DNA from: a virus
IMG/VR virus record: IMGVR_UViG_3300032820_000146
Location: 1-21,362 of that record
Strand: one strand, 5' to 3'
DNA length: 21,362 nt
This document shows, piece after piece, positions 491-1,970 of the stretch; the stretch's first letter is position 1; each line of letters begins with the position of its first letter. Under the pieces are notes generated by a model. That model was not told the DNA's origin. It did not search any database and was given only the letters and a program-made list of their open reading frames with translations. Made by a program: the position numbers and the translations under genes.

Positions 491-685
491 CTAATTTATT
501 TTAGCTTGTTCTTGTTCCATTCTCTCATTTTCTTCTTCAATATGTTGTATTAGCAATGTGAGATATATTTCTCTTTCATAACAAATTAAATTTTCTAGCT
601 CGGTTAAACTCCAATTATGATTTTGTACAATAGCGAATAGAGTTTTATAATAATTATGTAAATTATTATGGCCGAGCGCTAACCG
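491..685 (-). CDS. -1 frame extension of gp26: tail-assembly-chaperone-like T domain, made only by frameshifting
   Basis: This 64-codon stretch ends at TAG (493-491) and lies in the -1 frame relative to the gp26-like gene. Its frame is open back to a TAA at 724-722. From there to the last dozen residues it contains no ATG or GTG, and its only TTG lies in the middle of the helical core, so it cannot start on its own in any normal way. Joined through the T TTT TTC heptamer it gives a gp26 fusion of about 299 residues. The peptide is helical and acidic at its end: WSLTELENLICYEREIY followed by an EEENERMEQEQ run. The W-x-L-x-E-(I/L)-E...ERE-I-Y pattern resembles the short second product of phage tail-assembly-chaperone pairs (lambda T, P2 E', and unnamed equivalents in myoviruses). 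By position it could be compared with T4 gp51, which follows gp26, but T4 gp51 is much longer and no similarity was established. The role in tail assembly is inferred. Confidence 0.72.
   Translation of the reverse strand, partial: RLALGHNNLHNYYKTLFAIVQNHNWSLTELENLICYEREIYLTLLIQHIEEENERMEQEQAKIN
647..669 (-). repeat. A/T hairpin downstream of the slip site (9-bp stem, 5-base loop)
   Basis: On the minus strand ATAATAATT, loop TACAT, AATTATTAT form a perfect inverted repeat starting 15 bases after the slip heptamer. It could slow the ribosome as a downstream stimulator. All pairs are A-T and the spacing is longer than the usual 5-9 bases, so its contribution is uncertain. Confidence 0.3.
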
Positions 686-1389
686 AAAAAACTTTGCAGC
701 CCCTCCAGGACTGACTCTTGTTTACTGCCGCATTTCGAACAAGTAAATTCTACCTTATGTTTTAATTTGGGCATGGTATTAAAATAACCAATTAATTTCC
801 CGAATTGTTGTTGATTTAAAGACATTATAAAATCTTCTAATTCTTGTTCTGTATAATCTCTTATATCATGTATTTCGTCGCCTTCCCAAATAGATTCTAT
901 ACATGCCTTGGTAATTTCAAAAATAGAATCCATTTGCGATTCTTCAGGCGGTCTTGTCATTCTATCAATATCAGGATATTTTAATTTAACTTTTATTTTA
1001 TTAGTAAGTTTTATTACATCCGTATGATCTTTGCTGATCTCTAAACCAATATTTTCAAGATTAACTTGAACTGGTGTCTCCCCGTCACAATCTTTGGTTT
1101 GACAAGACAAGCTGATTTCAACATTTTGTCCAACTGAACGAGCTCTTAAATTTAGAAAAAATAATTCAATATCAAAAGCAGGAAGTTTTTCAATTTCAAC
1201 ATCATCGTCAAGACAACAGTTTTTAATAATTTCTTTTGTAGCTCTTACGATGTCCGCTGTTTCACCGCCTTCAAGAGCTGTTAGTAAAATCTTTTCTTCT
1301 TTAACAAGAAAAGGTCTATATTTTATTTTGTGATCTACACTATGTAATTTAAGTTCATAGGTAGGATTACCCACAATTGGTAAAGCCAT
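679..1389 (-). CDS. gp26: gp26-like baseplate hub assembly protein (T4_baseplate family), zinc-ribbon type
   Basis: A 236-residue protein starting at ATG 1389-1387 after GGAGATATA, a clear ribosome binding site. It matches the gp26-type baseplate proteins of T4-like phages in size, in gene order and in its start, LPIVGNPTYELKLHS. Two cysteine pairs are visible: C96-x4-C101 and C217-x2-C220 (FTCSKCGSK), which together could hold one zinc ion. The middle contains the charged segment around DIDRMTRPPEES and an acidic helical stretch. In T4, gp26 is needed for hub assembly but seems not to remain in the mature baseplate, which fits a chaperone. The last sense codons are TTT TTC GGT before TAG, forming a slip heptamer that leads into the downstream -1 frame. 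Most molecules probably end here, with a minority extended. Identification rests on recognised family features, not on a database match. Confidence 0.78.
   Translation of the reverse strand: MALPIVGNPTYELKLHSVDHKIKYRPFLVKEEKILLTALEGGETADIVRATKEIIKNCCLDDDVEIEKLPAFDIELFFLNLRARSVGQNVEISLSCQTKDCDGETPVQVNLENIGLEISKDHTDVIKLTNKIKVKLKYPDIDRMTRPPEESQMDSIFEITKACIESIWEGDEIHDIRDYTEQELEDFIMSLNQQQFGKLIGYFNTMPKLKHKVEFTCSKCGSKQESVLEGLQSFFG
685..691 (-). promoter_or_regulatory. Slippery heptamer T TTT TTC, candidate -1 ribosomal frameshift site
   Basis: Read on the minus strand, codons 234 and 235 of gp26 are TTT TTC, preceded by the T of AGT. This gives an exact X XXY YYZ heptamer. The zero-frame TAG follows after a single GGT codon. 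A one-base backward slip leads to CGG TTA GCG and into a 64-codon open frame that has no usable start of its own. The heptamer is placed exactly where it must be for the fusion to form. Confidence 0.72.
700..706 (-). promoter_or_regulatory. Internal Shine-Dalgarno-like GGAGGGG upstream of the slip site
   Basis: On the minus strand GGAGGGG lies inside the gp26 coding sequence (codons for LEGL), eight bases before the slip heptamer. There is no start codon at a suitable distance downstream in any gene, so it is not an initiation site. In E. coli dnaX a similar Shine-Dalgarno sequence about ten bases upstream stimulates -1 slippage. The same role is inferred here. Confidence 0.5.
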
Positions 1390-1412: not shown

Positions 1413-1970
1413 TTAATCAGATGGGGAAAATTCTCTTTGGGATCCATCTATCCATTTTTTATATTGAAAATTCACACTAAATTTTCCTACTTGATTCATT
1501 TGATCCCAACCCAAACTAATAGGATCAACATTGGTTGGAAAGGCCTCTAAATATTGAGCAACAGCAATTGCATCTTCCGTAGAAGATTTCGCGTATTGAT
1601 CAAACATTAATATATCAACTTGGCCCTTATAATTATCCTGCCATTCAATATTTGCTGATTCTGGATCAATTATATAATCCATCCAATTTAAAAACGTTTT
1701 TCTTGCCGACATAGCGTTTGTTAATATAAATCCTAATTGGAGTTCCGGATAAGTTGCTTCTCTTGCTAGTTTTCGAGTCGGACCATAATGTCTTAATTCT
1801 GAAGTCGCTATTGTTCTTCCTGGCATCGGGGCGGAATCACACAGATAAGATAATATTTCAGTTTCACCGACCTTGAGCAGGTTCGGCATCTTAAACCTTG
1901 CTACAAATCTATTTAAAGGAGCTAAACCTCTTTCCCCATCCAATTTCGATAAAAAGCTCTCTGTATTCAT
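1413..1970 (-). CDS. Tail-tube-fold baseplate protein, gp54/gp19-like (tube initiator candidate)
   Basis: A 185-residue protein with ATG at 1970-1968 behind CGGAGATTT. It has the hallmarks of the T4 gp19/gp54/gp48 tail-tube fold: an N-terminal FVARFKMPNLL strand, the segment SAPMPGRTIATSELRHYGPT, a middle FLNWMDYIIDPE, and the C-terminal pattern AFPTNVDPISLGWDQ followed by FSVNFQYKKW. These proteins build or start the inner tail tube on top of the baseplate hub. At 185 residues it is close to a plain tube protein (gp19, about 163) and much shorter than T4 gp54 (320). Its location among baseplate genes, away from any sheath gene, suggests a tube initiator rather than the major tube protein. 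Whether it is the gp54 equivalent or a second tube paralogue cannot be settled here. It lies 23 bases before gp26 and 16 bases after the 205-residue gene. Confidence 0.65.
   Translation of the reverse strand: MNTESFLSKLDGERGLAPLNRFVARFKMPNLLKVGETEILSYLCDSAPMPGRTIATSELRHYGPTRKLAREATYPELQLGFILTNAMSARKTFLNWMDYIIDPESANIEWQDNYKGQVDILMFDQYAKSSTEDAIAVAQYLEAFPTNVDPISLGWDQMNQVGKFSVNFQYKKWIDGSQREFSPSD

Follow-up and report, generated by a model that had tools for sequence, protein, structure and literature searches.

The window, by which we mean the whole analysed stretch of 21,362 nucleotides (IMG/VR record IMGVR_UViG_3300032820_000146), contains a gene resembling gene 26 of phage T4 whose end is overlapped by an open frame that has no evident start codon of its own. 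This raises the question of how the second frame is translated and what it encodes. The sequence-only reading had proposed a G/GT-like programmed -1 frameshift inside a T4-type baseplate operon, and the comparative evidence presented here supports that proposal. Judged from these sequence comparisons, the locus is very probably a marine T4-like tail-assembly chaperone locus in which a -1 slip yields two proteins, TAC-N (gp26) and TAC-NC (gp26-gp51).

The gp26-like gene and its slip site

All coordinates of the gp26/gp51 locus refer to the minus strand. The first gene is an open reading frame of 236 amino acids (1389-679; codons 682..1389, stop codon TAG at 681-679), which is matched over its full length by the Pfam family PF12322 (T4_baseplate, E=1.2e-61) and by phrog_150 of PHROGs (baseplate hub, E=9.7e-66). 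By these profile matches it is the equivalent of T4 gp26 and would be TAC-N, the short form. Its 3' end reads AGT TTT TTC GGT TAG and contains the slippery heptamer T TTT TTC (691-685) in phase for a -1 slip, followed by GGT (684-682) and the stop codon. After a slip, reading would continue as CGG TTA GCG... up to a TAG at 493-491, adding 64 residues to the first 235 and giving a long product of 299 residues. The heptamer one codon before the gp26 stop and the short and long forms of 236 and 299 residues, all of which had been read from the window alone, are thus borne out.

Identity of the -1 frame

The -1 frame (TAC-C; 64 codons and a stop, 491..685) is open from after a TAA at 724-722 to the TAG at 493-491. 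No ATG, GTG or TTG is present in this frame of the window within the first 75 nt past the gp26 stop; its sole TTG lies inside the segment ..YLTLLIQH.. and its sole ATG near the C-terminus. The extent of the frame and its lack of a usable start are therefore as first described. The encoded tail matches phrog_634, 'baseplate hub assembly catalyst' (gp51), with E=3e-24 over positions 58-118 of 121, and is still found at 3.4e-27 by a profile built without the window's clade; a search of Pfam returned no family for it. On this profile evidence the downstream peptide is gp51 itself, cut down to its C-terminal domain. The sequence-only reading had regarded it as the short partner of a chaperone pair and left it without a name; its description as a frameshift tail is supported, and the peptide can now be assigned to gp51. 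Cyanophage gp51 has been described as lacking the first ~200 residues of T4 gp51 (PMC3037559), and the tail encoded here likewise lacks the N-terminal ~200 residues.

To examine selection on the frame, 11 sequences from the window's clade were compared over the 165 bases that follow the slip. Summed over sequence pairs, 457, 222 and 764 changes fall at codon positions 1, 2 and 3, respectively, and single-base codon changes are synonymous in 471 cases versus 227 non-synonymous. The excess at third positions together with the synonymous bias shows that the -1 frame is coding sequence under purifying selection. The other two frames of the same stretch contain 66 and 81 stops.

Several public annotations of gp51 begin at internal codons, namely in HTVC008M (L126, 5052-5189), Ochrobactrum phage OC (L034, 2256-2396) and S-CREM1 (L028, 2744-2917). 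These are probably misannotated frameshift tails in which the beginning of the -1 frame has been cut off.

Conservation of the arrangement across relatives

Relatives were fetched by gp26 alone, using peptide patterns that exclude the slip region, which gave 26 close loci, 80 more from an alignment and isolate phages in addition. An in-phase T TTT TT[C/T/A] is present in the last gp26 codons of 107/107 distinct loci (TTTTTTC in 97), many of which are related, so that the counts do not represent independent events. In all 105 loci not cut by a contig end, the -1 frame stays open for 53-68 codons. The set includes Kyanoviridae, Emmerichvirinae (AS-zj, VmeM-32), Schizotequatrovirus R11Z, Pootjesviridae OLIVR5, Busanvirus ACP17 and Menderavirus YB07; three T4-type genomes and two outliers were viewed separately from it. 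Conservation of both the heptamer and the open frame in gp26 homologues, which had been suggested as a check on the frameshift, is complete in this set, and the arrangement is therefore not due to chance.

A start codon of its own in the downstream frame of homologues, or loss of the heptamer from an intact frame, had been named as observations that would speak against frameshifting, and each is seen in part of the relatives. In S-PM2 and many Kyanoviridae an ATG lies in the -1 frame 2-14 nt past the gp26 stop, which would allow these phages to produce free gp51 as well; an in-frame ATG occurs before +60 nt in 91/107 loci. S-PM2 and these Kyanoviridae belong to sister groups of the window, whereas none of its closest relatives (65-98% identity) has lost the heptamer, and an ATG near the beginning of the -1 frame is found among them only in L017. 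Loss of the canonical heptamer with retention of a homologous -1 frame is seen in the two outliers, the Ackermannviridae phage allotria (tail homology E=1.2e-5) and Vibrio phage D532 (E=0.0026), where the best of 500 shuffled decoys reached 0.19, but never in the closest relatives. In allotria (L041, ~2180-2400) the gp51-like -1 frame has no start codon near its beginning. In D532 (L039, ~2160-2400) it is joined to gp26 through a TAATG overlap, a sequence feature that would suit reinitiation.

Signals around the slip site

Codon usage at the slip site is strongly constrained. The codon before the two phenylalanines always ends in T in the 107 loci (AGT, TCT, GAT, AAT, GCT or GGT), and the second phenylalanine codon is TTC in 91% of loci as compared to a background of 27%. 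A Shine-Dalgarno-like GGAGG, a candidate 5' stimulator, is located at 702..706 in the window, 10 nt upstream of the heptamer, and GGAGG or GAGG occurs at exactly this distance in 76/107 loci. The glutamate of a conserved LEGL motif is encoded by GAG in 79% of loci versus a background of 27%, with a Fisher p of 6e-25 that is overstated since the sequences are related. It is this choice of GAG in LEGL that places GGAGG or GAGG exactly 10 nt before the heptamer. Shine-Dalgarno stimulators of -1 shifts, of which dnaX is a named example, act at a spacing of 9-14 nt (PMC5009743).

Downstream of the heptamer, folding of the single window sequence predicts a three-way junction at 598..677 (-20.3 kcal/mol, z -2.56) as a candidate 3' stimulator. 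Its closing stem of 6 bp, GCUCGG/CCGAGC, pairs 677-672 with 603-598 at a 7-nt spacer from the heptamer and encloses two predicted hairpins (669-647 and 645-606). Across 104 loci the folding-energy signal relative to dinucleotide-shuffled sequences is strongest immediately past the heptamer (mean z -1.43), as compared to z of -0.6 to +0.2 in eight control windows taken upstream. In an alignment of 13 related sequences two pairs of the closing stem change on both sides (A-U/G-C, compensatory), and the whole predicted structure has 10 double-change cells compared to 4.3 in shuffles (0/500), these changes being counted on the single-sequence structure and not on the RNAalifold consensus. The pairing is destroyed when the partner strand is slid. 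RNAalifold favours a different pairing in which the slip site is buried; therefore the exact fold is uncertain, and the presence of a structure is better supported than its form.

Two further features of this region were noted. The conserved residues NNLHNYY are encoded at 647-669 (minus strand) by a near-perfect palindrome (ATAATAATT...AATTATTAT), and S-PM2 has a comparable long hairpin at the corresponding position. A terminator-like hairpin at 713-697, shortly before the heptamer, was also considered and proved to be at chance level.

gp26 and gp51 in the T4 group

In T4, S16 and Acinetobacter AB1I1T there is no heptamer; gene 25 comes next after gp26, and gp51, with 249-251 amino acids, is encoded on its own and transcribed divergently. 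Searching with a profile of the gp26+gp51 fusion from the marine set matched T4 gp51 (249 aa) with E=4.6e-12; residues 207-245 correspond to the tail domain (E=4.5e-7), and ahead of them there is a weak match to gp26, the E-values referring to a search of six sequences. T4 gp51 thus consists of a diverged gp26-like part followed by the tail domain, from which it appears that T4 encodes both the short and the long form, as two separate genes. While the domains are homologous between T4 and the window, T4 has an inverted, separate gp51 with its own diverged gp26-like part and no heptamer, whereas in the window the gp51 domain is in the -1 frame. T4 was still named as an exception to G/GT frameshifting in a 2016 review (PMC5009743). 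The statement of the sequence-only reading that genes 26 and 51 are separate in T4, with no frameshift described there, agrees with this review and with the gene layout.

Frameshift model and alternative explanations

In the model that we propose, most ribosomes would stop at the TAG and produce TAC-N (gp26, 236 aa). A fraction of the ribosomes would be paused by the Shine-Dalgarno-like GGAGG 10 nt upstream and by the RNA stem 7 nt downstream. A paused ribosome would slip back by one base on U UUU UUC, its two phenylalanine tRNAs re-pairing with UUU UUU, and would then read the -1 frame to produce the 299-residue TAC-NC (gp26-gp51). From the signals in the sequence we infer that slippage occurs and that GGAGG and the stem stimulate it. 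The Shine-Dalgarno-like element, heptamer and stem together provide a concrete candidate signal that may fix the proportion of short to long chaperone. If lambda G/GT is taken as a guide, the role of TAC-N would be to coat the tape-measure protein, and TAC-NC would use its C-terminal domain to recruit tail tube subunits.

The main alternative is that gp51 is translated alone, by internal initiation or by stop-start reinitiation after gp26, the heptamer being incidental. In S-PM2, P-SSM4, P-SSM5 and others gp51 is indeed annotated from a start just past the gp26 stop, most loci have the early in-frame ATG described above, and the GGAGG could act as an initiation site. However, a start codon is absent from this position in the window and its nearest relatives, all 107 loci have the heptamer in the same phase with a choice of phenylalanine codon that departs from background, and in T4 a single protein still joins a gp26-like part to the gp51 domain. 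We therefore regard independent translation of gp51 as very unlikely. The long form could also arise by slippage of the RNA polymerase on the T run and not of the ribosome, as every site has six T in a row and HTVC008M up to eight. Transcriptional slippage in bacteria has, however, been described for stretches of 9 A or T (PMC5009743), in 91% of loci a TTC codon keeps the T run from exceeding six, and the Shine-Dalgarno-like element at a distance suited to -1 shifting and the downstream structure are ribosomal signals; this origin of the long form seems slightly less probable still. As the junction is a homopolymer, an indel from assembly or sequencing might have split one gene in two, but the same split is seen in more than 100 loci and in isolate genomes such as S-PM2, P-SSM4, HTVC008M and OLIVR5. 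Such an error is refuted by the conservation of the split and its probability is negligible. Ribosomal frameshifting into the gp51 frame thus best accounts for the locus.

Relation to known frameshift systems

Vladimirov, Gautam and Davidson are said to have identified the chaperone genes of T4-like phages in 2022 (doi 10.1016/j.virol.2021.11.003), with frameshifting conserved in several T4-like groups, while T4 itself reportedly uses the separate genes 26 and 51. In passages citing their work, one paper mentions poly-T frameshift signals in the TAC-N genes of T4-like phages (PMC12846349), and another mentions T4-like phages that, rather than frameshifting, carry one gene for the short form and a second, fused gene for the long form (PMC10885494). 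Since the frameshift arrangement has already been published for several T4-like groups, the window represents a new instance of a known arrangement. So far as these passages describe it, the gp26/gp51 pair (TAC-N/TAC-NC) of Vladimirov et al. comprises orthologous genes with the same poly-T -1 logic; the window differs in belonging to another, unannotated marine clade, and the Shine-Dalgarno-like element and the structure peak were measured here. For very abundant marine T4-like phages the present analysis corrects the annotation, as gp51 would be the tail of a gp26-gp51 fusion and not a stand-alone gene. This would explain why cyanophage gp51 had seemed to be only '20% of the length' of its T4 counterpart (PMC3037559).

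The layout of the signals resembles that of E. coli dnaX, with an internal Shine-Dalgarno-like element ~10 nt 5', an X XXY YYZ heptamer and a stem a few nucleotides 3'. The likeness is in layout only: dnaX is an unrelated gene, and its shift makes the short form, the opposite outcome to gp26/gp51. In the literature searched, which covered Vladimirov et al. 2022 through papers that cite it, no description was found of a dnaX-like layout (Shine-Dalgarno-like element at 10 nt, structure peak after the heptamer) at T4-like chaperone genes, and the search found no ribosome-profiling paper on T4-like cyanophages. A broader hypothesis, which we consider equally likely to be right or wrong, is that the chaperone frameshift of T4-like phages is driven by a conserved dnaX-like signal, made up of U UUU UUC, the Shine-Dalgarno-like element 10 nt before it and a 3' structure, which in this clade takes the form of a covarying three-way junction, and that frameshifting is ancestral, the T4 lineage having lost it through duplication and fusion of genes.

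Predicted fold of gp26

An AlphaFold2 model of gp26, built from an alignment of the window with IMG/VR rows, has a pLDDT of 87. Foldseek returned no significant match for this model. A second structural comparison placed 3FGX at the top (Z 8.1), followed by 2OB9, a tail assembly chaperone of HK97 (Z 7.0, rmsd 3.4, 79 residues); both matches fall in the N-terminal ~95 residues, and the third row has a Z of 4.8. These matches lend support to a chaperone fold of the N-terminal domain in the model, at Z values of 7-8 that lie within the range which, as the tool warns, can reflect a common arrangement. The predicted fold of residues 1-87 resembles the HK97 chaperone, compared to which gp26 has an extra part of ~140 residues.

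The slippery sequence of lambda G/GT differs from T TTT TTC. The lambda system is alike in pairing a short chaperone with a minor long form, which is made by -1 frameshifting and carries a C-terminal domain, and in predicted role (PMC5009743). It is by analogy with such systems that we infer a chaperone role for gp26 and gp26-gp51.

Genomic neighbourhood

The upstream neighbour of gp26 is a tail tube protein-like gene (1413..1970, minus strand; phrog_45, E=4.2e-31; Phage_TTP_2). Genes resembling tail tube, DNA end protector (gp2) and head-completion genes lie on the same strand as gp26, and gp48- and gp53-like genes come next on the opposite strand. By sequence similarity these neighbours fit a T4-like tail block. 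The gene order is similar in Pelagibacter phage HTVC008M, in which a single small gene separates the gp26/gp51 pair from an annotated putative tape measure downstream.

Immediately past gp51, the window contains the start of a gene that runs off the contig (3-473, minus strand; phrog_36222). Its product has weak similarity to a hypothetical protein of Synechococcus phage S-CAM7 and is not recognisable as a tape measure. A 98%-identical relative (L001, 3917-6427) has a gene of 837+ residues at the corresponding place, for which no tape-measure profile match was found and whose C-terminal stretch (SSDIRLKEN..) matches a tail-fibre profile. The difference between the window and this relative after gp51 may reflect a segment inserted or replaced beside the tape measure.
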